Shown: positions 1,763-32,111 of the stretch, in pieces
How the letters are laid out: every line of letters starts with the position of its first letter
Numbering within the stretch: position 1 is the stretch's first letter
DNA from: Acidimicrobiales bacterium
Lineage (GTDB): Bacteria > Actinomycetota > Acidimicrobiia > Acidimicrobiales > Iamiaceae
NCBI GenBank assembly: GCA_012730075.1
Contig: JAAYBP010000244.1
Coordinates: 1-32,519, forward strand
Reading direction: 5' to 3'
Length of the DNA stretch: 32,519 bases
Notes under the pieces: model-generated
The model's input: only the letters and a program-made list of their open reading frames with translations
Databases searched by the model: none
What the model was told of the DNA's origin: nothing
Program-made: the position numbers and the translations under genes

Positions 1763-1893
1763 GCGGACAGACGCGCGCGGCCCTTCTGGCGGCGGCTGCG
1801 CAGCACGGCGCGACCGGCGCGGGTCGACATCCGCTTGCGGAAACCGTGCCGCTTCGAGCGGCGACGGACGTTGGGCTGAAAGGTGCGCTTCAC
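1759..1893 (-). CDS. rpmH: 50S ribosomal protein L34
   Basis: 44 aa (V)[43 protein letters not shown] from GTG at 1893; canonical L34. Confidence 0.97.
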
Positions 1894-2242
1894 TGCTCTC
1901 CTCCTCGGACACCGCGACCTCCACGCCCGACGCCGCCGAAGCGGCGCCGTCGATCCCCGGCCGCCGCGGCCATCCGGCCCCGGGGCCGACCCGATCGTCG
2001 GGCAGGCGCGGGTGCCCCGTGAGTCCACGGGACCGGGGGACACGCTAGAGGGCGCCTCCCGCGCCGGGCAACACGGCTCCCCCGACGGTGGCCCGACGCT
2101 CTCACCAGCGGCGTTGCGTCCTCTTGCACGCGCCCCGATCGACGGTGGTACGGTCGCCCTCCCGGCGCCCCGGCCCCCCCGGTCATCGGCGCTCGGTGCC
2201 ACAGACGACGACCCCACGCCTCTCGCGAGGCGCTTGCTGGCG

Positions 2243-2274
2243 TTGTCCACATCTGTGGATTCCCGTGTGGACGA
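2243..2274. promoter_or_regulatory. DnaA-box cluster just upstream of dnaA
   Basis: TTGTCCACA (2243-2251), TGTGGATTC (2254-2262), TGTGGACGA (2266-2274), ending 22 nt before the dnaA GTG. Confidence 0.7.
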
Positions 2275-2296
2275 GGGGAAAGCCGGAGGATCTCTC

Positions 2297-3715
2297 GTGG
2301 AGGCAGCCGACCATCTGTGGGGCGCCTGCTGCGACTTCCTCCGGGATCAGGTCAGCGACGGGGTCTGGCGCTCGACGTTCCAGGGGATCCGGGCGGTCGA
2401 CGTCGACGACGAGCGTCTGGTCGTCTCGGTACCGAGCGGCGTCGTCGCCGACCGCATCTACGGCCGCTACCGCCCACTGGTCGACGAGGCCCTCCTGTCG
2501 GTCCACGGCGACCCCCTCGACCTGGTGGTCGAGGTGCACGCCCCCCCGGCCGACGCCGACGGCCCCGAACCGGGCGCGGACGACCACGAGATCACCGAGG
2601 GTGACGGCGCGACGACCGCGCGGACGGCGCGGACGCCGGTGAGCGAACCGCTGCGGCTCCGCGAACCCGAGTCCGGGAACGGCGCCGACGCGGTCGATCC
2701 GCTCTACACGTTCGACGACTTCGTGATCGGCCAGTCCAACCGCTTCGCGTTCGCGGCGTCGATGGCGGTGGCCGAGACCCCCGGCCGCGCCTACAACCCG
2801 CTCTTCATCTACGGCGACGCCGGGCTCGGGAAGACCCACCTGCTCCAGTCGATCCGCGCCTACGTCGGGCTCAACTACCCGAACAAGGTCGTCCGCTACG
2901 TGTCGACCGAACGGTTCCTGAACGACTTCATCGAGGGCATCCGCCTGAAGACGATGAACGAGTTCAAGCGGCGGTACCGCGAGCTCGACGTGCTGCTGGT
3001 CGACGACATCCAGTTCATCGAGGGCGCCGAGCGGTTCCAGGAGGAGTTCTTCCACACGTTCAACGAGCTGCACGCCCGGCGCAGCCAGATCGTGCTGACC
3101 TCCGACCGCAGCCCCGACGCCATCGCCACCCTCGAGCACCGGCTCCGCAGCCGGTTCCGCATGGGACTGATCACCGACATCCAGCCGCCCGACGTCGAGA
3201 CCCGCCTCGCCATCCTCAAGAAGAAGGCCGAACGGGCCCCGATCCAGGTCCCCGACGACGTCCTCGAGTTCATCGCCACCCACATCTCGGACAACATCCG
3301 CGAGCTCGAAGGCGCCCTGACCAGGGTCTCGGCCTACGCCGCGCTCTACCAGCGCGACCTGGGCGTCAGCCTCGCCGAGCAGGTGCTGTCCGACATCCTC
3401 GGCGAGAGCCAGAGCCGCACGGTCAGCGTGGCGACGATCCTCGACAAGGTGTCCCAGCGCTACGGGTTCAGCGTCGAGGAGATCACCGGCAAGAGCCGCC
3501 GCCGGCCACTCGTCACCGCCCGCCAGGTCGCGATGTACGTGATCCGCGAGCTGACCGACCTCAGCTACCCGGCGATCGCCCGGGAGTTCGGCGGCCGCGA
3601 CCACACCACCGTCATGCACGCGGTCAGCAAGATCGAGAACCTGATGGCGGAGCGCAAGCCCATCTTCCACCAGGTCCAGGCGCTGCTCCAGGAGCTCCGG
3701 AAGGGCGTCGATTGA
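2297..3715 (+). CDS. dnaA: Chromosomal replication initiator DnaA
   Basis: GTG start with GGAGGA 6 nt upstream; [39 protein letters not shown]-terminal [17 protein letters not shown]. The ORF call at 1883 is an upstream extension. Confidence 0.98.
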
Positions 3716-4103
3716 CCGCCCGTGGGACCCGGCGGACCACCGCCGCGGGCCGGTCCGGTCGGCGCGGGGGCGCGCTGGTGTTCTGCACAGGTGTGGACGA
3801 ACGTGTGGACCTGCCGTGGACCAGCGTGTGGGTCGACGGGGGACGCGAGGTGGACGCGATGTCGATGGCCGGGGGCCCGCGGTGGACACCCGTCGGTCCA
3901 TCCGCGCCGACCACCCACGACCTGTGGAACGCTGTGGACGTCTGTGGATCACCGACACCCGGTCTGACCTGCGCAGACGCCGGTTCGTCCACGTTCCACA
4001 GCCACCCCTACCCCTATTACCCGAATGAAGATCCGGTTGTGGGAGTCCTCGATCCCGACCCCCGACCCTCCGCCGGACGGCGGGGAGAAAGCGAGCACCG
4101 TCG
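3716..4103. other. Probable oriC in the dnaA-dnaN intergenic region
   Basis: Multiple DnaA-box-like 9-mers: TGTGGACGA 3792, TGTGGACCT 3804, CGTGGACCA 3815, TGTGGGTCG 3827, TGTGGAACG 3923, TGTGGACGT 3933, TGTGGATCA 3943, inverted TCGTCCACG 3985 and CGTTCCACA 3992, followed by a locally AT-richer tract around 4008-4033. Confidence 0.88.
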
Positions 4104-5192
4104 GTGAAGTTCCGTTGCGAGCGTGATGACCTGGTCGAGGCCCTCGGCACCGCCGGGCGGGCGGTGGCCAACCGCGGCGGGGCCCTGCCGGTCCTCTCGG
4201 GGGTCCGGATGGAGCTGACCGGCTCGCGCCTCCAGCTCACCGGCAGCGACCTCGACCTCACGATCGCCGTCTCGGCCGAGGTCGGCGGCGAGACCGACGG
4301 CGTGGCGGTGGTGCCGGCCAAGATCGCGTCGGACGTGGTGCGCTCCCTCGATGCCGGCAGCGTCGAGGTGCTGGTCGAGGGCGACGAGGCCCAGATCAGC
4401 TCGGGCCGGTTCTCGTCGTCGATCCGGCTGTTGCCCGCCGACGAGTTCCCGCGGCTCGCCCCGCCCGCCGAGCGCGCCGTCACCCTCGACGCCGCCGACC
4501 TGGCCACCGCCTTGTCCCAGGTGGTGCCGGCGGCCAGCAACGACGACGCCCGGCCGATCCTCACCGGTGTGCTGATGGCGGCCGAGGGATCGGGTCTGCG
4601 CCTGGTCGCCACCGACTCCTACCGCCTGGCGGTGCGCGACCTCGAGGGCAGCGCGGTGCTCGACGAGGGCCAGAGCGTCCTCGTGCCGTCGCGGGCGCTG
4701 CGCGAGCTGGTGCGCGCCCTCGGCGAGGGCGAGGTCACGCTCCGCCTCGGCGAGCGGGAGGCGACCTTCGAGGTCGACACCATGCGGCTCACGACCCGCC
4801 TGATCGAGGGCGAGTTCCCCAACTACCGGGGACTGATCCCCTCGACGTACCCGAACCGCATGGTCGTGTCGCGCGAGGCGCTCGGCGACGCGGTGCGGCG
4901 CGTCCGCCTGATGGCCCGCGAGGCGACGCCGGTGCGGCTGACGATGAGCGACGACGGCGTCGAGCTCGACGCCGTCACCCAGGACATCGGCCAGGCCAGC
5001 GAGGCGGTCGACGCGCGCTTCGAGGGCAGCGAGCTGACGGTCGGCTTCAACCCCGACTACCTCCTCGACGGCATCGAGGTCACCCCCGGCGACGAGGTCG
5101 CCCTGGAGACCACCGACGCCAACAAGCCGGCGGTGCTGCGGGCGATCGGGCGGGAGGACTTCCTGTACCTGCTCATGCCGGTGCGCATCTGA
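4104..5192 (+). CDS. dnaN: DNA polymerase III subunit beta (sliding clamp)
   Basis: 362 aa; GTG start MKFRCERDDLVEALGTAGRAVANRGGALPVLSGV...; ends YLLMPVRI. Confidence 0.98.
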   Translation: MKFRCERDDLVEALGTAGRAVANRGGALPVLSGVRMELTGSRLQLTGSDLDLTIAVSAEVGGETDGVAVVPAKIASDVVRSLDAGSVEVLVEGDEAQISSGRFSSSIRLLPADEFPRLAPPAERAVTLDAADLATALSQVVPAASNDDARPILTGVLMAAEGSGLRLVATDSYRLAVRDLEGSAVLDEGQSVLVPSRALRELVRALGEGEVTLRLGEREATFEVDTMRLTTRLIEGEFPNYRGLIPSTYPNRMVVSREALGDAVRRVRLMAREATPVRLTMSDDGVELDAVTQDIGQASEAVDARFEGSELTVGFNPDYLLDGIEVTPGDEVALETTDANKPAVLRAIGREDFLYLLMPVRI

Positions 5193-5217
5193 CCGCCCAC
5201 CCGGGGTCGACCGTCCG

Positions 5218-6300
5218 GTGCTGTTGACGCGGGTCTGGCTGACCGACTTCCGCAACTACGCCTCGGCCGAGCTCGAGCCGGCGCCGGGCCTGACGGTGAT
5301 CGTCGGCGCCAACGGCCAGGGCAAGAGCAACCTCCTGGAGGCGGTCGGCTGGTTGGCCGGCCTGCGCTCGTTCCGGGCCGCCCCCACCGAGGCCCTGGTA
5401 CGGGTGGGTGCCGACCAGGCGATCGTCCGCGGCGAGGCCGACCGCGCCGGGCGGGCGCTCCTGATCGAGTGCGAGATCTCACGGACCGGGCGCAACCGGA
5501 CGCTGGTCAACCGCCAGCCGGTGCGCCGGACGCGCGACGCGCTCGACCACCTGAGGGCGGTCAGCTTCGCCCCCGACGACCTGGAGCTGGTCAAGGGGGG
5601 CCCGGCCGAGCGCCGCCGCTATGTCGACGATCTGCTGGTCGCGGTGCACCCCCGGTACGAGACGGTCCGCAGCGACCTCGACCGGATCCTCCGCCAGCGC
5701 GCCGCGGTGCTGAAGCAGTCCGGCGGGCGGTCGTCCCCGGAGATCGAGGCGACGCTCGACGTGTGGGACACCCGCCTGGCCGCCACCGGCGAGGAACTGG
5801 CCGAGGGCCGGGCCGCGCTGCTCGCCGACCTGGCCCCGATCGTCGCCCGGGCCTACCTCGACCTGGCGGACGCGGGCGCGGTCGACGTCACCTACGCGCC
5901 GGCGTGGCGGGCCGAGGGCCTGGCCGGCGCCCTCGCCGCGGCGCGCCCCGACGAGCTGCGTCGGGGTGTCAGCCTCGTCGGGCCCCACCGCGACGACGTC
6001 GGGCTCGACCTCGACGGCCTGCCGACGCGGACCCACGCGTCGCAGGGCGAGCAGCGCTCCCTGGCCCTGGCCCTGCGCCTGGCGGCCGCCCGGCGCCTGG
6101 CGACGACGCTCGACACCCCGCCCCTGCTCCTGCTCGACGACGTGTTCTCCGAGCTCGACGACGCCCGGGGCGAGGCGCTCCTGGCCCACCTCCCACCGGG
6201 TCAGACGCTGGTCACCACGGCCACCGCCATCCCGCCCGGGAGCCGCCCCGAGCGGGTGTTCCGCGTCGAGTCGGGAGCGGTCGTGCCCGACCTCGGCTAG
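5218..6300 (+). CDS. recF: DNA replication and repair protein RecF
   Basis: 360 aa; LTDFRNYASAELEPAPGLTVIVGANGQGKSNLLEAVGWL (Walker A), SQGEQRSLALALRLA, LLLLDDVFSELD. Confidence 0.97.
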   Translation: MLLTRVWLTDFRNYASAELEPAPGLTVIVGANGQGKSNLLEAVGWLAGLRSFRAAPTEALVRVGADQAIVRGEADRAGRALLIECEISRTGRNRTLVNRQPVRRTRDALDHLRAVSFAPDDLELVKGGPAERRRYVDDLLVAVHPRYETVRSDLDRILRQRAAVLKQSGGRSSPEIEATLDVWDTRLAATGEELAEGRAALLADLAPIVARAYLDLADAGAVDVTYAPAWRAEGLAGALAAARPDELRRGVSLVGPHRDDVGLDLDGLPTRTHASQGEQRSLALALRLAAARRLATTLDTPPLLLLDDVFSELDDARGEALLAHLPPGQTLVTTATAIPPGSRPERVFRVESGAVVPDLG

Positions 6301-6329
6301 CAGCGCGGCCCCTGGGCCATCATGGCGGG

Positions 6330-6668
6330 GTGCCCCGGGACCGACGCTCCGACCGAGACGGCTCCGCACGCGGCCCGACGCCGATCGGCGAGGCGCTCGA
6401 CCGCGTGCTCGCGGGGCTCGGCGCGCCGCCGGCCTCGGCCCTCGAGCGGGTGATCCGGGCCTGGCCCGACCTGGTCGGTCCGGCCGCGGCCGAGGCGCTC
6501 CGCCCCGTCGCGGTGCGTGACGGTGAGCTGGTGGTCACCGCGGACGACCCCGCGTGGGTCGGGCAGGCCCGCTGGCTGGAGGACGGCGTGGTGAGCGGCC
6601 TGGCGGACGTCCTCGGACCCGGCGTGGTGACCCGCCTGCGGGCCCGGCGACCGGCCCGCCGGAGCTAG
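6330..6668 (+). CDS. DUF721 / DciA-like protein
   Basis: 112 aa from GTG at 6330: PIGEALDRVLAGLGAPPASALERVIRAWPDLVGPAAAEALRPVAVRDGELVVTADDPAWVGQARWL; DUF721 pattern in recF-gyrB position. Confidence 0.85.
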   Translation: MPRDRRSDRDGSARGPTPIGEALDRVLAGLGAPPASALERVIRAWPDLVGPAAAEALRPVAVRDGELVVTADDPAWVGQARWLEDGVVSGLADVLGPGVVTRLRARRPARRS

Positions 6669-6733
6669 GCGCGCCGCGGCGTCCGCGGGCTCCGGGCGCG
6701 GCCGCCCGGGCCGCCGTCGGTGCACGGCGCTGA

Positions 6734-6760
6734 CGTACCCCCCTGGTACGATGGGGGGCA
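6734..6760 (+). promoter_or_regulatory. Candidate gyrB promoter with extended -10 (TGGTACGAT) inside a C6/G6 dyad
   Basis: GTACCCCCC-TGGTACGAT-GGGGGG; -10 TACGAT at 6747-6752, about 140 nt upstream of the gyrB start. Confidence 0.5.
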
Positions 6761-6894
6761 TCGTCAACGCCTGTCGAGACCAGCGTCCCCACCGACCATC
6801 GGGCGGGTTCGCAGGCGGTGGCATCGAGGCCGGAAGCGGCCTCGGATCGTTCGTGAGCACGTTGCTCTCCCCGCCGTCCTGAGAGGTCGCGCCC

Positions 6895-8823
<1,929 letters not shown>

Positions 8824-8886
8824 GGCGCCCGGCCACCGCCGCCGGCGCCCCCACCCGAGGACGAGAGGACCCGAGGAAGCCACCGA

Positions 8887-11382
8887 ATGACCGACGACCA
8901 GAACCCGACCGACGAGCCGTCCGACGCCGACCTGCCCGGCTCCGCCGACAGCAGCGTGGAGCTGATCGAGATCGAGGAGGAGATGGAACGCTCGTTCCTC
9001 GACTACTCGATGTCGGTCATCGTGTCGCGGGCCCTGCCCGACGTGCGCGACGGGCTCAAGCCGGTGCACCGCCGCATCCTCTGGGGCATGCACGACGTCG
9101 GCGCCCGGCCCGACCGTCCGTTCATGAAGTGCGCGCGCGTCACCGGCGACGTCATGGGCAAGTACCACCCCCACGGCGACGGGGCGATCTACGACGCCCT
9201 CGTCCGCATGGCCCAGCCGCACTCGCTGCGGCACCCGCTCGTATCGGGGCACGGCAACTTCGGCTCGCCCGACGACGGCCCCGCCGCCGCCCGCTACACC
9301 GAGTGCCGCCTCGCCCCGCTCGCCCAGGCGATGCTCGCCGACATCGACCAGGACACGGTCGACTTCGTGGACAACTACTCCGGCGAGTTCGAGGAGCCGT
9401 CGGTGCTCCCCAGCCGGTTCCCCAACCTGCTGGTCAACGGCTCGCAGGGCATCGCGGTCGGCATGGCCACCAACATCCCGCCCCACAACCTGGGCGAGAT
9501 CATCGACGCGACCACCTACCTGATCGACCACCCCGAGGCCACCGTCGACGAGCTGGTCAACGCCGGCATCGTCAAGGGCCCCGACTTCCCGACCGCGGGG
9601 CTGATCCTCGGCCGGGCCGGCATCCTCGACGCCCAGCGCACCGGCCGCGGGTCGATCCGCATGCGCGCCCGGGCCGAGATCGAGGAGAGCGGCGGCAAGC
9701 GGGGCGACCGCATCGTCGTCACCGAGCTGCCGTACCAGGTCGGCCCGCGGACGGTCCTCGCCAAGATCAGCGAGCTGGTCGCGGCCAAGGAGATCGAGGG
9801 GATCGCCGACGCCAACGACGAGTCCTCCGGTGGCGAGACGCGCATCGTGATCACGCTCAAGCGCGACGCGCCGGCGCTGATCATCCTCAACAACCTCTAC
9901 AAGCGCACCCCCCTCCAGACGTCCTTCGGGGTGAACACGGTCGCCCTCGTCGACGGCGTGCCCCGCACGCTCAACCTGCGCGACGCGCTGTGGCACTACC
10001 TGGAGCACCAGGTCGAGGTCATCACCCGGCGCTCCGAGTACCGGCTGGCCAAGGCCCGGGCCCGCGCCCACATCGTCGAGGGCCTGCTGAAGGCGCTCGA
10101 CCTGATCGACGAGATCATCGCCGCCATCCGAGCCTCGGCCGACAAGCCGGCGGCCAGCGCCGCGCTCCAGGCCGCGCCGTTCGAGTTCACCGAGGTCCAG
10201 GCCGAGTACATCCTCGAGATGCAGCTCCACCGCCTCACCCGGCTGGGCCGGGCGCAGCTCGAGGAGGAGATGGAGGAGCTGCGCGCCCGCATCGCCGAGC
10301 TCGAGGCGATCCTCGGCGACCGCGAGGTGCTGATGGGCGTCATCAAGACCGAGCTGACCGAGATCCGCGGCAAGTACGCCGACGACCGTCGCACCGAGAT
10401 CACGTTCGACCCGGGTGACATGAACCTCGAGGACCTCATCGACGACGAGGACCTCATCGTCACCATGACCGCCAAGGGCTACGTGAAGACCGTGTCGGTC
10501 GACGCGTTCCGCAGCCAGGGTCGCGGCGGCCGCGGCGTCGCCGGCGCCAACCTGCGCGACGAGGACTACATCGCCCACATCGTCACCACCACCGCTCACG
10601 CCTACCTGCTGTTCTTCTCCAACCGCGGACGCGTGTACCGGCTCAAGGCGCACGAGATCCCGATGAAGGAGCGCACGGCGAGGGGCACCGCCATCGTCAA
10701 CCTGCTGCCGCTGCAACCCGACGAGCGCATCCAGGCGATCATCGACACCCGCGACTACGAGTCGAACCAGTACCTCTTCTTCGCCACCACCGGTGGCCAG
10801 GTGAAGAAGACCCGGTTCACCGAGTACGACTCGTCGTTGAGGGCCGGGATCATCGCCATCAACCTCCGCGACGGCGACGAGCTGGTCAAGGTCATCCCGT
10901 GCAACGACGGCGACGACGTGTTCATGGTCAGCCGGGCCGGGATGACCATCCGCTTCAGCCAGGACGACGTCCGCCCCATGGGTCGCTCGGCCGCCGGGGT
11001 CCGCGGCATGCGCATGAAGGACGGCGACGAGGTCGTGAGCTGCGACGTGGCCCGCGACGACACCGCCATCCTGATCGTGACCGACGCCGGCTACGGCAAG
11101 CGCACCCAGCTCGACAAGTTCAACCAGCAGGGCCGCGGCGGCCAGGGCGTCCGGGGCATCCGCCTCACCGCCAAGAAGGGCCGGGTCGCATCGGCGTTCA
11201 TGGTCGGGCTCGACGACGAGATCTTCGTGATCGCGTCCGGCGGGGTCGTGATCCGCATGGGCGTGCGCGACATCTCCTCCCAGGGGCGCGACGCCACGGG
11301 CGTAAGGGTCATGAACCTCGACGACGGCCAGACCGTCGCCGCGGTGGCCCCGGTGCTGGGCGACAACGAGACCGACGAGTGA
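8887..11382 (+). CDS. gyrA: DNA gyrase subunit A
   Basis: 831 aa; [49 protein letters not shown]-terminal GyrA box QGRGGRGV and repeats. Confidence 0.99.
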
Positions 11383-13956: not shown

Positions 13957-14790
13957 ATGCCCGTCGAGTGCGAAGCTGAGGTTCACCGACTGATCGAGGA
14001 GCACCTGCCGTTGGTACGGCACGTCGTGTTCCAGGTGGCGGTGCACTTCCCCCGTCACGTCGATCGCGAGGAGCTCGCCACCGCGGGCGCCCTCGGGCTC
14101 GTCGAGGCGGCCCGCCGCTACGACCAGGCGCGGGGCGTTCCGTTCGACCGCTTCGCCGCCCAGCGCATCCGCGGCGCGATCCTGGACGCCGTCCGGGCGG
14201 CCGACTGGGCGCCGCGCTCGGTGCGCACCCTGGCCCGCAAGCTGGAGCAGGTCGAGCAGCAGCTCGCTACCAAGCTCGGCCGGGTGCCCAACGCGCACGA
14301 GAAGGCCGAGGCCCTGGGCATGGAGCCCGACGAGCTGCGCCGGCTCCAGGACCGCATGTTCCGCTCGGTCGTGCTTGCCCTCGAATACGAGGTCGCCGAC
14401 GACGACGAGGAGCTGACGCTCGTCGACGTGCTCGCCGACGACCACAACCGCGAGCCGTCCGAGGAGCTCGAGAACCGCGAGCTGCACTCGTACCTCCGCG
14501 ACGCGGTCGGCCTCCTACCCGAGCGCCACCGGCTCGTGATCGTCGGGTACTTCCTCGAGGGCGCCAAGTCCCAGGAGCTGGCCCAGCTCCTCGGCGTCAC
14601 CGAGTCCCGCATCTCCCAGCTCCGGTCCGAGGCGCTGGCGATGCTCCGCGACGGCATCGAGGCCCAGTACGAGCCGGCGCCGGCCGAGGAGCCCACCGGG
14701 CGGGTCGCCCGGCGCAAGGCCGGCTACGCGTCGGCCATCGGCGATGCCTCGGCCTGGAGCGACCGGCTCACCGCCCTCGCCACCAGCTGA
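13957..14790 (+). CDS. RNA polymerase sigma factor, FliA/WhiG family
   Basis: 277 aa; HLPLVRHVVFQVAVHFPRHVDREELATAGALGLVEAARRYD, FDRFAAQRIRGAILDAVRAADWAPRSVRTLARKLE, sigma4 RHRLVIVGYFLEGAKSQELAQLLGVTESRISQLRSEAL; GGAGGGG upstream of ATG. Confidence 0.9.
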   Translation: MPVECEAEVHRLIEEHLPLVRHVVFQVAVHFPRHVDREELATAGALGLVEAARRYDQARGVPFDRFAAQRIRGAILDAVRAADWAPRSVRTLARKLEQVEQQLATKLGRVPNAHEKAEALGMEPDELRRLQDRMFRSVVLALEYEVADDDEELTLVDVLADDHNREPSEELENRELHSYLRDAVGLLPERHRLVIVGYFLEGAKSQELAQLLGVTESRISQLRSEALAMLRDGIEAQYEPAPAEEPTGRVARRKAGYASAIGDASAWSDRLTALATS

Positions 14791-14794
14791 GTCC

Positions 14795-14814
14795 CCTGCG
14801 CTCCTCAGCGCAGG
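14795..14814. terminator. Shared bidirectional hairpin between the convergent sigma-factor and FlgN-like genes
   Basis: Perfect 8-bp stem CCTGCGCT-CCTC-AGCGCAGG overlapping the FlgN-like stop codon; no T-tract. Confidence 0.5.
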
Positions 14815-15428
14815 AAGGCGAGCAGGGCCGGGATCCGCAGCCGACCGGCGGCGGCGATCACGTCGTGCAGCAGGCACTCGATCGCGACCGGCTCGATCGC
14901 GTCGGCGGTTCCGGGCGCCCGCAGCCGGGCGACCTCGGGGGCCATCACCGCCGCCCCGCCGCCGGTGACGAGCGCGGCGTCGGCCGCGGCCAGGACCGGC
15001 TCGGGCCGACGGGGACCGACCGTGCCGGTGCGGGCCAGCTCCGCCAGGCCGTCGCGGCCGTGCTGGGCGATGCGGTGCGCGGTGACCTCGATCTCGGTGA
15101 CGACCGCGGAGAGGTCGTCGTGGTGGTCGCGCAGGATCGTCGACCAGGGGCGGGGAGCGACGGCGGCGACCTCCCGCAGGGACGGCACCCCGCGGGCGCC
15201 CTTGAGGTTGAGTCGGGCCACGTCGGCGGCGCGGGCGAGGTCGACCTCGCGGACCTTGAGGCGGGCCCGGTCGAGGTCGCGCAGGGCCCAGCCCAGGAAG
15301 CGGGCCTCGCCCGCCTCCACCATGAGGTCGAGGGCTACGTAGCGGAACCGCAGACGCTCGAGCAGATCGCGCTCCACCTGCAGCCGTCCCGCCAGGTCCC
15401 CCCAGAAGTCACTCCCCGTTCCCGTCAT
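14805..15428 (-). CDS. FlgN-like flagellar export chaperone
   Basis: 207 aa helical protein: VERDLLERLRFRYVALDLMVEAGEARFLGWALRDLDRARLKVREVDLARAADVARLNL...PSLREVAAVAPRPWSTILRDHHDDLSAVVTEIEVTAHRIAQHG, resembling actinobacterial FlgN; adjacent to a FliA/WhiG-family sigma gene and preceded by a FliA-type promoter. Confidence 0.6.
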   Translation of the reverse strand: MTGTGSDFWGDLAGRLQVERDLLERLRFRYVALDLMVEAGEARFLGWALRDLDRARLKVREVDLARAADVARLNLKGARGVPSLREVAAVAPRPWSTILRDHHDDLSAVVTEIEVTAHRIAQHGRDGLAELARTGTVGPRRPEPVLAAADAALVTGGGAAVMAPEVARLRAPGTADAIEPVAIECLLHDVIAAAGRLRIPALLAFLR

Positions 15429-15436
15429 CCGACCAC

Positions 15437-15463
15437 CCATCGGCCCCATCCCCCATCGGTTGA
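15437..15463 (-). promoter_or_regulatory. FliA/WhiG-type promoter for the FlgN-like gene
   Basis: Minus strand TCAA (15463-15460) - 15 nt - GCCGATGG (15444-15437); 8 nt to ATG at 15428. Confidence 0.7.
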
Positions 15464-17445: not shown

Positions 17446-18912
17446 TCAGGCGAAGCGGGCCTTGTACTCGGCGCCGACGCGGATCATGCCGATCATCGCC
17501 TGGGTGGACTCGCCGGCGTCGAGGAGGCCCAGCCAGACCTCGCGCTCGGTGGTGCTCGGCGTGCGGACGAGCATCACGCCGTGGGTCCCGATCACGTGCA
17601 TGAGGTTGCGCAGGCGGTTCTGGTTCTCCGGCGACTGGCTGAAGTGGATCAGCACCTTGCCCCGGGTGGTCCCGGAGGCCAGCGCCGCCAGCCAGTACTC
17701 GCGCCCGGCGCCCTCGGCGTTGCGGCCGAGGACGTTCTGGTACACGCGGTCGACGAACTCGGCGTCGGTGAGCGAGCCGTACCGGGACGTGAACTCGGGC
17801 GCCCTGGTGAACTGCTGGCCGATGCGGTCGAGCGTCCACCCGTTCCGGCGCCGGTCGAGCCAGTAGACCAAGCCACCGGAGTCGGGCAGGCGGTCGTAGG
17901 CGGCGAGGTACACGCGGGCGACGGCCTGGGTCACCGAGTCGCACTCGGCGGACTCGAGCAGGTGCGCCGCCAGCCGGTCGGGGCTCCACGCGCCGCTGTT
18001 CAGCAGGTCGCCGTAGTAGGACAGGTCGGCGGCGGACGGCGAGCGGCCCAGGAAGTCGCGGTACTGGGCGTTGACGAACGCGGTGGCGGTGGTCCACGGC
18101 GCGAACACGGCCGGGTCGACCTGCGGACGCTCGGCGGCGGGGGCCGCGTTCTGGAGCGAGACCCGCGGGTTGACCGACGCGGACGACCAGAGCCGCTGGG
18201 TCTCGCTCGAGAACGTGCCGGTGGCCGGCTTGCGGATCTCGAAGTGGAGGTGGGAGCCGGACCCCTCGGCGTTGCCGCTGTCACCGCAGTAGGCGACGAG
18301 CTCGCCCCGCAGCACCCGCACGCCGCGGGCGGCGGACTCGTTGCCGACGTACTGGCGCAGCTTCGGCGCCCACGCGTACTGGGCCAGGTTGCTGGCGTCG
18401 TCGGTGCCGGGCCGGTCGTTGTTGATGTGCAGGTAGCAGTAGAACCAACCGTCGTCGCCCTGGATGTAGAGCGAGTTGCCCGACGCCCGGTGCCGGAACT
18501 CGACGATGCGACCGTCGACGACCGACAGCAGCTTGGTCATCTTGGGGGCCATGAGGTCCTCGCCCTGGTGGGGGCGGGTGCACCCGCTGCGGCAGGCGCC
18601 GTAGGTGTCCTGGGTGCGCGTCCAGCTCGTGGCGTTGTTGGGGAAGACCGGGAACATGATCCCGCGGTCGGGGCTCTCGGTGAGGGTGGTGCCGAACGCG
18701 TCGGTGCCGGGCAGGTCGGTGGGCGCGGGGTGGAGCGGCTCGGCCAGCGAGAAGTCCGTCGACCGCCCGCCGTCGGGACCGGTCGGGTCCTGCGCGCCGA
18801 CCGGCCACGAGGTGACGAGGAGCGCTCCACCGGCGGCCGCGCCTCCGATGATCACCCGGCGCCGGGACAGGGACCGGAGGGCGGGTGGGGCGGCGGGGCC
18901 GGGGCGGGACAT
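17446..18912 (-). CDS. Tat-exported M23 peptidase with C-terminal DUF4214 repeats
   Basis: SLSRRRVIIGGAAAGGALLVTSW Tat-like signal; RPHQGEDLMAP and HLHFEI M23 motifs; repeated segments YRDFLGRSPSAADLSYYGDLLNSG / VYLAAYDRLPDSGGLVYWLDRRRNG / VYQNVLGRNAEGAGREYWLAALASG. Confidence 0.85.
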   Translation of the reverse strand: MSRPGPAAPPALRSLSRRRVIIGGAAAGGALLVTSWPVGAQDPTGPDGGRSTDFSLAEPLHPAPTDLPGTDAFGTTLTESPDRGIMFPVFPNNATSWTRTQDTYGACRSGCTRPHQGEDLMAPKMTKLLSVVDGRIVEFRHRASGNSLYIQGDDGWFYCYLHINNDRPGTDDASNLAQYAWAPKLRQYVGNESAARGVRVLRGELVAYCGDSGNAEGSGSHLHFEIRKPATGTFSSETQRLWSSASVNPRVSLQNAAPAAERPQVDPAVFAPWTTATAFVNAQYRDFLGRSPSAADLSYYGDLLNSGAWSPDRLAAHLLESAECDSVTQAVARVYLAAYDRLPDSGGLVYWLDRRRNGWTLDRIGQQFTRAPEFTSRYGSLTDAEFVDRVYQNVLGRNAEGAGREYWLAALASGTTRGKVLIHFSQSPENQNRLRNLMHVIGTHGVMLVRTPSTTEREVWLGLLDAGESTQAMIGMIRVGAEYKARFA

Positions 18913-22966: not shown

Positions 22967-25900
22967 TCAGGGCCGGTTGACGTCGTCGTCGACGGCGCTG
23001 CCGGACCCGCCGGCCGCGTCGTCGTCGGGCAGCTCGAAGCCGCCGCCGGCGAGGTTGTTCTCGAGCATCTCGGTGAAGACCTCGGAGGTGACCGGCGGCG
23101 AGAACCAGAAGCCCTGCCCGAGGTCGCAGCCCATCCGGCGCAGCACGTTGATCTGCTCCTGGGTCTCGATGCCCTCGGCGACGGTGTGCACGCCAAGGCG
23201 ACGCGACAGGGCGACGATGGCCTCCAGCACCGGCGTGGCCTCCCCGCCGACGATGCCGGCGACGAAGCTGCGGTCGACCTTGAGCACGTCGACGGGCAGG
23301 TCGTCGACGTAGCGGAGCGACGAGTAGCCCACACCGAAGTCGTCGAGCGCGATCTGCACGCCGAGCGCCTTGAGGGCGGTGAGGCGGCTGCGGTCGGTCT
23401 CCATGTGGTCGATGACGACCGTCTCGGTGATCTCGAGGGTGAGGGTGGAGGGGTCGAGCGCGAACTGGTCGACGACGCCGCGCACCGAGTCGATGATCGA
23501 CGCCTGCTCGAGCTGGCGCACCGACAGGTTCACGCTCATCGACAGGGCGGCGTCGCCGGGGAGGCTGAGCTGCCAGGTGCGGAGCTGCTGGCACGCCTCC
23601 TCCAGCACCCACTGGCCGAGCTGCACGATGAGCCCGGTCTCCTCGGCGATGCTGATGAAGGCGTCGGGCGAGAGGCGTCCCCGGCGGGGGTGGTCCCAGC
23701 GGACGAGCGCCTCGGCGCCGGTGATGCGGCCGGTCTCGAGGGCCACGACCGGCTGGTAGACGAGGGCGAGCTGGCCGGAGGTGATGGCGCGGGCGAGGTC
23801 GGCCTTGAGCTCGAGGCGTTCGAACGCGGTGACGTGCATCGCCTCCTCGAACAGCTCGACTCGGTCCTTGCCCCGCTCCTTGGCCAGGTACATCGCCATG
23901 TCGGCGTTGCGCAGGACGACCTCGGGCGTCGTGCCCTGGTCGCCGACCGCGGCGATGCCGATCGACGCGGTGACGACGATCTCCCAGCCGTTGATGTCGA
24001 ACGGCGAGCGCAGCTCGTGGAGGAGGCGGAGCGCCACGCCGACCGGGCCGAGGTCGTCCTCGGTGGGCCGGACCAGCACCGCGAACTCGTCGCCGCCGAG
24101 GCGGGCGGGCGTGGCCTCCGGCGGGAGGCTGGCGGTGAGCCGCTGGGCGACCGCGACCAGCAGCTCGTCACCGACGGCGTGCCCGAGGCTGTCGTTGACG
24201 GTCTTGAAGTCGTCGAGGTCGATGAAGAGCACGCAGGCCGAGCCGCCGTCGGCGACGGCGGTCTCCTCGACGAGCCGGGCGAAGTGGCTGCGGTTGGGGA
24301 GGCCGGTGAGCGAGTCGTGGTCGGCCTGGTGGCGGAGGGACGATTCGAGCTGCTTGCGCAGGGTGACGTCGCGGGCGTTGAGCACGACGCCCTGCACCGC
24401 GGGGTCGTGGCGGAGGTCGGTGACCGTGACGTCGAGGATGCGCGACGAGCCGTCCATGGCGATCGCGCGCAGCTCGAGGCTCTCGTCGATCAGGTCGCCC
24501 GCGGCGACGCGCAGGGCGCCGGTGAGGATCCGCTCGACCGACTGGCGCTCGTCGGAGGCGATCACCGCGGTCGCCGGCGTGTCGAGGAGCTGCTCGGGGC
24601 GGTAGCCGAGCAGGCGGGTGATCGCGGGCGACACGTAGGTGAACCGCCCCCAGTCGTCGATGACGGCGACGACGTCGGACACGTTCTGCACCAGGGCGCG
24701 GAACCGGGCCTCGCTGCGGTACAGGCGGACCTCGGCGTCCTTGCGGTCGGTGACCTCGCGGCAGTTGAGGATGACGCCCTCGAGCTCGGGGTCGTCGGTG
24801 AGGTCGCGGGCGACCGCCTCGAACCAGCGGTGGTGGCCGTCGGCGTGGCGCAACCGGACCTCGATGGGCGGGGTGAACGTGCTCGCCGCGGACCGCTCGA
24901 TCAGGCCGTCGAGCAGTTCGAGGTCGTCGTCGGTGAGGTCGGCCAGCGGGCGGCCGATCAGGTCGAACGCGGTCCGCCCCAGCAGGCGCCGGACGGCGGG
25001 GGTGATGAAGGAGATCGTGCCGTCGGGGGCGACCACGAGGATCAGGTCCGACGAGTTCTCGATCATCACGCGGAAGCGCCGCTCGGTGCGCGTGCGCTGG
25101 AGCGTCTCGGCGAGCTGGGCGCTGTCGACCGCGAGGGCGAGGTTGGTCTCGAGCGTGCTCAGGGCCCGGCGGACCGGCTGGGGGAGGGCGGTCTCGGACT
25201 CGACCTGGATCGCCAGATCCGGCTCGTCGGGGCGGCCGAGCTTCACCCGGGCGACGCGGGTGTCGCGGATCGCCGGTGCCGGCTCGCCTTCGTCCTCCGC
25301 GCCACCGGCGACCCGGATCGCCGCGCCGGTGCGGTCGACCAGGAGGCCGACCGCGTCGTAGGCGGCGGCCTCCAACGAGGGGCGGTCGGCGGCGAGCAGG
25401 AGGCGGTCCGACGCCTGCCGGAGCGTGTGCTCGAGGCGGGCCGCCTCGGATCCCGCCCGGATCATCAGGGTGAGGCGGGCGAGCACCAGACCGGTGACGA
25501 CGGCGGCACCCAACGCCATGACGATCAGGTCGTCGCGTCGTCCGGTGCGGGCGATGACGATCAGGGTCGCGGGAGCGACGAGCAGCGCGGCCGAGAGGAT
25601 CGCGAAGCGGGCGGTGCCGACCTCGGCGGGCGGGTCGGGGTCGCGGTCGAGCAGCAGCGGCAGGCTCGGGTGGAGGAGGGCGGCGCCCATGCACGCGTAC
25701 ACGATCGGCGACAGGATGATCGAGGCGTCGGGTGCGACGCGGGCGGTCAGGTCGGCGGCGACGAAGGCGAGGATCCCGGCGCCCAGGAGGTACCACGCCG
25801 GGGCCTTGGCACCGGGCCCGATGGCGAGGCGCGCCCCGACCACCATCACCGCCGCGCTCAACAGGATGAAGACCCCGCTCGTGATGGTGGCGAGGACCGA

Positions 25901-26416
25901 CTCGGGGTTCGCCTCGAGGGCGGGGGACACGGCGGGCAGCCACAGCGCCAGGCCGAGGGCGACGGCGATGATCGCGCCGTCGATCAGTCCCTCGTGGTCG
26001 GGCTGGTCGTTGCGGGCGCGCCGGAGCCGCTCGATGCCGCCGATGAGCACGACGTAGGCGGCCCCGTAGAAGAACTCGCCGATCCCGGGGTAGGGGGGTT
26101 CCTCGCCGGTGGTCAGCTCGTAGAGGACCGATGCGGTGGCGCCGAGCAGGCCCAGGGGGGCGGCGGCGATGATCTGGCGGACCGGACGGATGGCGGTGCC
26201 CCGGTTGTGCGCGAGGAACACCACGCAGCACCCGATGACCACGACCCCGGTGATGACGGCGAGCGGGGCCCGGACGGTGGGGACCAGTGCGCCGACGACG
26301 GTCGCCGCCAGGCCGGCCCCGAGGACGACCTTCCAGCCGGCGCGCCCGGTGAGCCCGCCGTCCTCGTCCTCGGACTCGCCTCCCCAGCCCCTCACCCTGC
26401 TCACCGTCCTACTCAT
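22967..26416 (-). CDS. Multi-TM, PAS-PAS-GGDEF-EAL c-di-GMP turnover protein (true start possibly GTG 26404)
   Basis: N-terminal hydrophobic helices, PAS (FRVMIENSSDLILVV...; FRALVQNVSDVVAVI...), LGGDEFAVLV, EALVRW, DDFGVGYSSLRYV, LKVDRSFV, EGIETQEQ. Confidence 0.96.
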   Translation of the reverse strand: MSRTVSRVRGWGGESEDEDGGLTGRAGWKVVLGAGLAATVVGALVPTVRAPLAVITGVVVIGCCVVFLAHNRGTAIRPVRQIIAAAPLGLLGATASVLYELTTGEEPPYPGIGEFFYGAAYVVLIGGIERLRRARNDQPDHEGLIDGAIIAVALGLALWLPAVSPALEANPESVLATITSGVFILLSAAVMVVGARLAIGPGAKAPAWYLLGAGILAFVAADLTARVAPDASIILSPIVYACMGAALLHPSLPLLLDRDPDPPAEVGTARFAILSAALLVAPATLIVIARTGRRDDLIVMALGAAVVTGLVLARLTLMIRAGSEAARLEHTLRQASDRLLLAADRPSLEAAAYDAVGLLVDRTGAAIRVAGGAEDEGEPAPAIRDTRVARVKLGRPDEPDLAIQVESETALPQPVRRALSTLETNLALAVDSAQLAETLQRTRTERRFRVMIENSSDLILVVAPDGTISFITPAVRRLLGRTAFDLIGRPLADLTDDDLELLDGLIERSAASTFTPPIEVRLRHADGHHRWFEAVARDLTDDPELEGVILNCREVTDRKDAEVRLYRSEARFRALVQNVSDVVAVIDDWGRFTYVSPAITRLLGYRPEQLLDTPATAVIASDERQSVERILTGALRVAAGDLIDESLELRAIAMDGSSRILDVTVTDLRHDPAVQGVVLNARDVTLRKQLESSLRHQADHDSLTGLPNRSHFARLVEETAVADGGSACVLFIDLDDFKTVNDSLGHAVGDELLVAVAQRLTASLPPEATPARLGGDEFAVLVRPTEDDLGPVGVALRLLHELRSPFDINGWEIVVTASIGIAAVGDQGTTPEVVLRNADMAMYLAKERGKDRVELFEEAMHVTAFERLELKADLARAITSGQLALVYQPVVALETGRITGAEALVRWDHPRRGRLSPDAFISIAEETGLIVQLGQWVLEEACQQLRTWQLSLPGDAALSMSVNLSVRQLEQASIIDSVRGVVDQFALDPSTLTLEITETVVIDHMETDRSRLTALKALGVQIALDDFGVGYSSLRYVDDLPVDVLKVDRSFVAGIVGGEATPVLEAIVALSRRLGVHTVAEGIETQEQINVLRRMGCDLGQGFWFSPPVTSEVFTEMLENNLAGGGFELPDDDAAGGSGSAVDDDVNRP

Positions 26417-26439
26417 CGGCTTCGAAACCTGGGCCTTGA
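26413..26439 (-). promoter_or_regulatory. FliA/WhiG-type promoter for the membrane GGDEF-EAL gene
   Basis: Minus strand TCAA (26439-26436) - 15 nt - GCCGATGA (26420-26413); 8 nt to in-frame GTG at 26404. Confidence 0.7.
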
Positions 26440-29384: not shown

Positions 29385-32111
29385 TCAGTGGTGGTTCGGA
29401 TCGTGTCGGTACACGGCCTCCAGCCGGGTCAGATCCGCGGCCGGGGCGGGCGCGGCGAACAGGTAGCCCTGGCCGTGGGTGCATCCGATGCGCACCAGCG
29501 TGTCGATCTGGGCGGAGTCCTCGATGCCCTCGGCGATCACGTCGAGGCCGAGGGCCCGGCCGACCGCGACGACCGCCTCGACGACGGCCCGGCCGCCGGG
29601 CTCCAGGAGGCGCCGCCCGATCGACGGGTCGATCTTCAGGAAGTTGATCGGCATCGACCGCAGGTGCGCGAGCGACGTCGTGCCGGTGCCGAAGTCGTCG
29701 ATGCCGAGGCGCACGCCCATGGCGGTCAGGGCGCGCATGCGGTCCTGGGCCTGTCCGTCGGTGAGGAGCAGCGCGGGCTCGGGGATCTCGAGGTGGAGCC
29801 GGTGCGGTTCGAGGCCGCTCTCGTCCAGGGCGGTTCCGATGCGGTCGACCAGGGCGTCGGTCCGCAGCTCGGCCCCGCTCAGGTTGAGCCAGATCGACAG
29901 CGGGCCGATCATCGCCGCGTCCCACTCCTGGACCTCGGTCAGGACGGTTTCGAGCACCCAGCCGGCCAGATCGACCAGCAGTTCGGGGTCCTCGACGCCG
30001 TCGAGCAGGCGGCCGGGCGGGCCGGTGCCGGCGAGGGGGTCCTCGATGCGCAGCAGGGCCTCGGTGCCGACGGCCCGACCGCTGCGGAGGTCGACGATCG
30101 GCTGGTGGTGGACCGTGAGGCTGTCGGTGTCGATCGCCAGGCGCAGCGCCTCGGTGATCGGGGTGAGCGGCTGGTCGGTGCCGGCGCCGACGGTGACCTG
30201 GTAGCGGTCGCGGCCGGCCGCCTTGGCCTGGTACATCGCCTGATCGGCGTCGCGCAGGACGGCGTCGACCGTGGCGTGCTCGGCTCCGGAGAGGACGACG
30301 CCGACGCTGGCGGTCACCGCGAGGACGTGGTCGGAGCGGACGAAGGGTTGGGCGATCGCGGCCCGTACCTTCTCGGCGAGCATCGCGGCCGTCTCGGGTT
30401 CGCTGACGCCGTTGGCGAGCACCACGAACTCGTCGCCGCCGAGGCGCACGACCGTGTCGTCGGTTCGCACCGCGTTGCGGAGCCGCTGGGCGATCTCGAC
30501 GAGCAGGGCGTCGCCGACCTCGTGACCGTGGGTGTCGTTGGTCCACTTGAAGTGGTCGAGGTCGACGAACATCAGGGCGAACGACGCCCCCGGGTGGGCG
30601 GTGGCGCGCTCGAGCCGCTCGCGCAGCAGCAGGCGGTTGCCGAGCCCGGTCAGCGGATCGTGCAGCGTCTGGTGGAGGAGCTTCTCCTCGGTGTCGCGCT
30701 GGACGGTGATGTCGCGGAGCTGGGCGATGGCGAACGCCCCGGGGTCGGCGCTCGACGGCACCGGCGACACGACCAGCTCGACCAGGCCGTCGGGTCGGCC
30801 GGCGCGGAGCAGGCGGCACTCGAGCTGGCCCCCCTCGCCCTGGCCCCCCTCGCCGTCGAACACGTCGAGGAGGGCCTGGTCGACGGCGGCGCGGTCATCC
30901 TCGGCGACCATCTCGACGAGCCGAGCGACCGGCGGGCCGTCGGACACCAGCGCGAGCAGGTCGCGCAGCTCGGCGTTGGCCTCCCGGATCGTGCCGTCGC
31001 GGCTGACCAGCGCCATCGGGGTGGGGGCGTGGGTGAACGCGGTGCGGAGGGCGTCGACCGTTCCGAGCTGGTCGATCTCGGCCCGGTGGCGGTCGGTGAT
31101 GTCGACCAGCACGGCGTCGGCGACGATCGCGCCGGCGAGGGTGGCCCCCTCGATCGTGATCCGGACCCAGCGGGCGCTGGCCGTCGAGGGCTCGTCGTCG
31201 GCGAGGCGGACCTCGTGCTCGAAGCCCGACAGATCGCCGCCGAGCGTCGCACCGAGGAGCGCCTGGAGGGGGGCCTGGTCGTCCCGCGCGACCAGGTCGA
31301 TCAGGTGACGCCCGGTCAGCTCGTCGGCCGGGGTACCGACGAGGTCGGCGAACGTCGTGTTGGCCCGCCGGATCGCCCCCTCCTCGTCGAGCTGGCAGCG
31401 ACCCGACGGCGCCTGCTCGAACAGGGCGTTGGCCCGCCGGGCCGCGCTCGCCATGCGACCGCCGGGCGCGTCGAGCGGCGTGAACACGAGCAGGCGCCCG
31501 TGGTCGGGCGCGGCCGCGGCCGGAAAGGTGAGGGGATCGGCGTCGAGGTCGACCGCCTCGACGTTGACCCACCGGGTGGGACCGCCGTCGCCGGGCACCA
31601 GCGCGATGCCCTCGGCGACGTCCTCGGCGCGGCGAACCAGCGCCGCCAGCCGCCCGGCGTCGTCGGGAGAGACGATCGACTCGAGGCCGCGCGTGGCGAG
31701 CGTGCGCGCCGGCGTGCGGACGAGGGCGGCGAGCGCGGGGCTGACCATCGAGGTCTCGCCGTCGGGTCCGATGGCGCACACGGCGATGCCGGGCAGGACC
31801 GCCCGGCGGCCGTCCTCGAGCGTGGCGACCACCGGGTCGCCGGGGTGCGGGTCGGGCCGGGTGCCGGCGCCGCGCACCATCACCTCGAGGTGCCGGGGCA
31901 GGCCGCGGATCGTCAGCAGTGCGTGGCCGCCGCTGGCGAGGGGGAGCGCGATCTGCGACTCGATGACCCGGCTGGTGTCGTCGGGGATGTCGCCGATCAG
32001 CGCGAGCACGGCCGGTTGGGCGGCCGGCGGGAGCTGGTCGATGCCGGTCATGGGCGTCGCGTCGCGGCCGAGCACCCAGTGCCCGTCCCACAGGCGCTCG
32101 TTGCTGCTCAT
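29385..32111 (-). CDS. Soluble PAS-GGDEF-EAL c-di-GMP turnover protein
   Basis: 908 aa from ATG 32111; FALMFVDLDHFKWTNDTHGHEVGD, RTDDTVVRLGGDEFVVLA (with RxxD), TEALLRIEDP, WLNLSG, GIDDFGTGTTSLAHL, FLKIDPS, AEGIED, GQGYLF. Confidence 0.95.
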   Translation of the reverse strand: MSSNERLWDGHWVLGRDATPMTGIDQLPPAAQPAVLALIGDIPDDTSRVIESQIALPLASGGHALLTIRGLPRHLEVMVRGAGTRPDPHPGDPVVATLEDGRRAVLPGIAVCAIGPDGETSMVSPALAALVRTPARTLATRGLESIVSPDDAGRLAALVRRAEDVAEGIALVPGDGGPTRWVNVEAVDLDADPLTFPAAAAPDHGRLLVFTPLDAPGGRMASAARRANALFEQAPSGRCQLDEEGAIRRANTTFADLVGTPADELTGRHLIDLVARDDQAPLQALLGATLGGDLSGFEHEVRLADDEPSTASARWVRITIEGATLAGAIVADAVLVDITDRHRAEIDQLGTVDALRTAFTHAPTPMALVSRDGTIREANAELRDLLALVSDGPPVARLVEMVAEDDRAAVDQALLDVFDGEGGQGEGGQLECRLLRAGRPDGLVELVVSPVPSSADPGAFAIAQLRDITVQRDTEEKLLHQTLHDPLTGLGNRLLLRERLERATAHPGASFALMFVDLDHFKWTNDTHGHEVGDALLVEIAQRLRNAVRTDDTVVRLGGDEFVVLANGVSEPETAAMLAEKVRAAIAQPFVRSDHVLAVTASVGVVLSGAEHATVDAVLRDADQAMYQAKAAGRDRYQVTVGAGTDQPLTPITEALRLAIDTDSLTVHHQPIVDLRSGRAVGTEALLRIEDPLAGTGPPGRLLDGVEDPELLVDLAGWVLETVLTEVQEWDAAMIGPLSIWLNLSGAELRTDALVDRIGTALDESGLEPHRLHLEIPEPALLLTDGQAQDRMRALTAMGVRLGIDDFGTGTTSLAHLRSMPINFLKIDPSIGRRLLEPGGRAVVEAVVAVGRALGLDVIAEGIEDSAQIDTLVRIGCTHGQGYLFAAPAPAADLTRLEAVYRHDPNHH
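30825..30854. repeat. Perfect 15-bp in-frame tandem duplication
   Basis: CTGGCCCCCCTCGCC twice in succession, encoding GEGGQ-GEGGQ on the minus strand. Confidence 0.85.

Follow-up and report, generated by a model that had tools for sequence, protein, structure and literature searches.

The window analysed here is a 32,519-nt stretch from a 3.3 Mb draft genome (520 contigs) of the Iamiaceae, a family (Acidimicrobiales by NCBI) that includes Aquihabitans. It carries a FliA/WhiG-family sigma factor gene and, convergent with it, a gene for an FlgN-like protein. A promoter-like site lies within the gap between the end of the minus-strand upstream gene (15556) and the FlgN-like start. The features are as follows:

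13957 to 14790, plus strand: FliA/WhiG-family sigma factor gene, proposed reader of the promoter (TIGR02479, solved-structure matches)
14805 to 15428, minus strand: gene for the FlgN-like protein, 207 aa, ATG 15428, predicted to be leaderless or to have a 1–2 nt leader (ortholog alignment, PF05130 in orthologs, model, weak fold match)
15437 to 15444, minus strand: extended −10 element GCCGATGG, 15-nt spacer from the −35, genus-wide consensus
15438 to 15440, minus strand: ATG inside the −10 box, read as a decoy start codon; in frame in the window, out of frame in nearly all orthologs
15460 to 15463, minus strand: −35 element TCAA, from the sequence; TCAA in 4/4 genus genomes, TCAC in the sister genus
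22967 to 26404, minus strand: c-di-GMP turnover gene (PAS-GGDEF-EAL, from Pfam) that follows the second site
26413 to 26439, minus strand: second site, one mismatch, TCAAGGCCCAGGTTTCGAAGCCGATGA; GTG 26404 lies 8 nt past it

Direct reading of the minus strand from 15463 to 15437 gives TCAA-N15-GCCGATGG. Specifically, TCAA is followed by the 15-nt spacer CCGATGGGGGATGGG, the box GCCGATGG, the 8-nt stretch GTGGTCGG and then ATG 15428, so that the sequence-only reading, which had placed TCAA-N15-GCCGATGG 8 nt before this ATG, was correct. The site has the architecture of a sigma-28 promoter, a class that flagellar or sporulation sigma factors usually recognise, with a −35 element and a GCCGAT −10 separated by a 15-nt spacer, and deviates from the FliA/WhiG consensus in its −35 (TCAA, not TAAA) and in its last two bases (GG, not AA). 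In addition, GTGC stands directly before the −35 in all four genus members, as AGTGC in the window. By arithmetic, the ATG within the box is in frame solely at an 8-nt distance between box and start and out of frame at every site with 6–7 nt. Since most relatives have this ATG in a different frame from the gene, ATG 15440 is best read as a decoy, as had been proposed.

The assignment of the adjacent gene to the FliA/WhiG family is likewise upheld, as it scores 209 bits against TIGR02479 FliA_WhiG, above the curated cut-off of 189.6. Its best solved-structure matches are Streptomyces venezuelae WhiG (6PFV/6PFJ) and FliA (6PMI). The genome yielded no second FliA/WhiG-family sigma; two weaker matches, at 27–32% identity, come next and are, in our reading, probably a SigB/F-type and a primary sigma. 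Sister-genus genomes contain a second sigma relative with about 36–40% identity. Autoregulation of the sigma gene was rejected: the best motif upstream of it in the window scores 8 of 12, and most of the genus likewise lacks a good one.

The label "FlgN-like", also given earlier, is right through relatives only: PF05130 matches 14 of 19 orthologs (E up to 1, best 4.7e-7), while the window protein alone has no Pfam match and two orthologs shown singly fall below the PF05130 gathering cut-off. Reciprocally, the profile of the FlgN-like orthologs finds the flagellar FlgN of genome G025 at 2e-29. The structural model (pLDDT 86.5) consists of long hairpin helices; fold searching with it returned weak matches only, the FlgN structure 2FUP being third at E 0.35, and the profile has no match among solved-structure sequences. 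The C-terminal end forms a conserved RLRMPxLLxFLR segment. Small ORFs after flgN in G029 and G036 have similar ends, ERVLHPSLIAFL and ERILQPSLVDFL, and this resemblance of separate small ORFs to the C-terminal segment, judged by eye, suggests that a small ORF and flgN were fused in the Iamiaceae proteins. The small ORFs L209:1893-2084 and L211:1914-2096 overlap the flgN end, their termini ERVLHPSLIAFLGQ and ERILQPSLVDFLS being like the Iamiaceae C-terminal segment. In other families of the order, sigma and flgN are separated by a gene for a LuxR-type response regulator (loci L209, L210, L211 and L212).

Profiles for Flagellin_N and FlhA (PF00669, PF00771) have no match in 24 family genomes and, among the 41 genomes searched, match solely in G025 and G037, in which Flagellin_N also detects FlgK/FlgL-type proteins. 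In both of these flagellated genomes the FlgN-like profile finds flgN just before flgK; the G037 contig that carries flgN also encodes a sigma relative, some 1.2 kb away. This arrangement suggests that the sigma-flgN pair was inherited from a flagellar cluster. Since Flagellin_N and FlhA are absent from the 24 family genomes, the family protein is, as judged from sequence, FlgN-derived and not a working flagellar FlgN.

An FlgN-like ortholog adjoins the sigma gene at 19 of the loci examined (Iamiaceae, Acidimicrobiales). Loss of TCAA/GCCGAT upstream of orthologs had been named as evidence against the promoter; instead, nearly all of them retain TCA[A/C]-N14-16-GCCGATGG upstream, with little else conserved there and with poorer matches at L052, L054 and L062. 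An ATG or GTG follows the −10 by 6–9 nt in 17 of the 19 orthologs, despite the drift of the −35 from TCAA to TCAC; the leadered orthologs are those of G001 and L044. In other families of the order, the FlgN-like gene lies beside or near the sigma in G029, G031, G035 and G036 and at a contig edge in G040, and related boxes precede the FlgN-like start by 6–13 nt in several of these families.

Genome-wide scanning for the motif, a check that the sequence-only reading had put forward, finds that many other genes also have leaderless spacing. The exact pattern TCAA-N15-GCCGATGG occurs in 7 genome copies against 0 for the reversed-pattern control, and the relaxed TCAM-N15-GCCGATKG gives 71 matches in four same-genus genomes against 4 for reversed controls, with GATGG present in every one of the 71. 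Of 70 relaxed-motif sites read, 55 lie outside genes. Among these non-genic sites, RTG occurs exactly 6 nt past the box at 18 (p about 7e-15) and exactly 7 nt past it at 11 (p about 3e-7), the background rate being ~0.03 per position and the counts, which come from related genomes, being phylogenetically non-independent. A start 6 or 7 nt past the box is found at 29/70 motif sites versus 1/42 GCCGATGG boxes without a −35 (Fisher 1.5e-6); beyond the window, genes were called with a simple codon-usage script, which makes some start positions approximate. In the window, TCAM-N15-GCCGATGG has a single match with no mismatch, the FlgN-like site.

The predicted regulon centres on pili, c-di-GMP and the cell surface. 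Three or more of the four genus genomes have in common, as targets, the FlgN-like gene, DUF4388, a T2SSE ATPase of the CpaF/TadA type, a TadE pilin, GNAT and GGDEF/EAL; PilZ, zinc-ribbon and ABC-transporter genes are common to two. DUF4214, CAP and SpoIID proteins are also among the motif targets, and surface-protein genes follow the motif as well. The pilB site is not retained from genome to genome, nor are several other targets. A conserved pilB promoter was rejected, the PilB target (L003) having an ortholog only in G001 and without the motif there. The C406 site (L005), 227 nt before an ECF-like sigma gene, may be a chance match. A second PAS-GGDEF-EAL gene of the window, at 29385–32111 (−), has an upstream motif with two mismatches that is not convincing. 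A protein with Peptidase_M23 and DUF4214 domains is encoded at window positions 17446–18912 (−), and the motif also precedes genes for DUF4214 proteins in G001 (L151) and G003 (L186).

The distance from the −10 to the start codon is 6–9 nt in most orthologs and peaks at 6–7 nt across the predicted regulon. With a genus optimum of 6–7 nt and a gap of 8 nt in the window, the FlgN-like mRNA may have a leader of 1–2 nt rather than none. Across the family, the motif before DUF4388 genes lies 30–45 nt upstream of the start, usually with a strong Shine-Dalgarno sequence; since it also occurs at that distance before Shine-Dalgarno-led genes, the motif behaves like a promoter, not like a translation signal. 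These leadered DUF4388 targets would also fit a sigma-28-type promoter with a conventional leader, in which the true start lies further downstream and the near ATG is coincidental. The G001 ortholog points the same way, its sole in-frame start being a GTG 39 nt past the box with a good Shine-Dalgarno sequence (GGAGG), and because of it leaderlessness is not absolute. For the window, however, a conventional leader is improbable: the sole in-frame ATG, GTG or TTG within 45 nt past the box is the one 8 nt away, ATG 15428. The 6–9 nt spacing in 17/19 orthologs and the genus-wide peak of starts at 6–7 nt argue against it as well, as does the lower frequency of Shine-Dalgarno sequences at starts 6–9 nt past the box (4/29 vs 9/19 at 5 nt or longer, p 0.019).

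It is about equally improbable that another regulator binds the motif or that a different alternative sigma reads it. The sigma is assigned from motif class and synteny only, and both the −35 TCA[A/C] and the terminal GG depart from TAAA/GCCGATAA. Against this, the flagellar sigma family has the same 15-nt spacing and GCCGAT core, no further FliA/WhiG-family sigma was seen in the genome, and a constant distance to start codons is in keeping with a promoter. Finally, although looser two-mismatch matches are common in the window (17, with 8 expected), a chance match in a G+C-rich intergenic region is very improbable indeed and already contradicted by conservation of the promoter in orthologs, the match being exact, kept across genera with a drifting spacer, and accompanied by strong genome-wide enrichment and a positional signal.

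The sequence 15463–15437 (−) is best explained, with high confidence, as a promoter recognised by the product of the neighbouring FliA/WhiG-family sigma gene, one that would yield a leaderless or near-leaderless FlgN-like mRNA, the pair being a putative flagellar remnant with a pilus/c-di-GMP regulon. RNA polymerase with the neighbouring sigma would recognise TCA[A/C] and GCCGATGG, and transcription would start about 6–8 nt past the box, on or within 1–2 nt of ATG 15428. The FlgN-like mRNA, leaderless or nearly so, would then be translated without a Shine-Dalgarno sequence. The sigma beside flgN would represent part of a flagellar cluster retained after the flagellum was lost, and the sigma regulon would now comprise Tad-type pili, c-di-GMP enzymes and effectors, and surface proteins. 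Feedback on the sigma would be the most likely role of the FlgN-like helical-hairpin protein, favoured by synteny and by the predicted sigma-dependent expression of the neighbouring gene. The conserved motif, its spacing, the target set and the synteny are supported by the sequences; we infer the transcription start, the identity of the sigma and the function of the FlgN-like protein. A broader proposal is put forward tentatively and could well prove wrong: in flagellum-less Acidimicrobiales, FlgN has become a regulator that acts, probably as a feedback anti-sigma, on a FliA/WhiG-type sigma for pili and c-di-GMP, with a large proportion of the messages of this sigma leaderless by promoter design.

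By analogy, the closest precedent is the Rubrobacter radiotolerans WhiG regulon with its RsiG/c-di-GMP switch, in which 12 promoters were mapped, several before type IV pilus and DGC/PDE genes (Schumacher et al. 2021, PMC8325347). Both systems combine an actinobacterial FliA/WhiG-family sigma, GCCGAT-type promoters, and pilus and c-di-GMP turnover targets, which in the Iamiaceae are predicted ones. The Iamiaceae system differs in its Tad-type pilus (CpaF-type ATPase, TadE) in place of a type IV pilus, the FlgN-like partner gene beside the sigma, promoters of the form TCA[A/C]/GCCGATGG rather than TAAA/GCCGATAA, and many targets with leaderless spacing. The RsiG motif E(X)3S(X)2R(X)3Q(X)3D was not seen by eye in the FlgN-like alignment, and the RsiG twin motif gave no paired matches in the four genus genomes with one strict DNA pattern, a weak test for any RsiG encoded elsewhere in these genomes. 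Class III flagellar promoters (sigma-28/FliA, including flgN-flgK operons) have the same architecture, and in flagellated G037, where flgN heads flgK near the sigma relative, a related box lies 6 nt before the flgN GTG. Unlike in those systems, the Iamiaceae FlgN-like gene stands apart from any flgK and next to the sigma, with no flagellin or FlhA. According to its citation in PMC8325347, Actinoplanes missouriensis uses FliA-family sigmas for flagella and zoospore type IV pili; as cited there, it resembles the system proposed for the Iamiaceae in having actinobacterial WhiG-like sigmas that direct pilus genes, but it is flagellated, whereas no flagellin or FlhA was found in the 24 Iamiaceae genomes.

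No report of such an arrangement in Acidimicrobiales was found in the open-access literature. Judged by sequence conservation, a flagellar sigma and a flagellar chaperone appear to have persisted together after the flagellum was lost and now to act in pili and c-di-GMP signalling. A whole alternative-sigma regulon is predicted to have its transcription starts on start codons. Where RsiG is possibly missing, FlgN-like proteins also become candidate partners for WhiG-type sigmas. The dnaA, dnaN, recF, gyrB and gyrA genes lie at 1883–11382 (+) of the window, placing the sigma-flgN pair close to the replication origin region.
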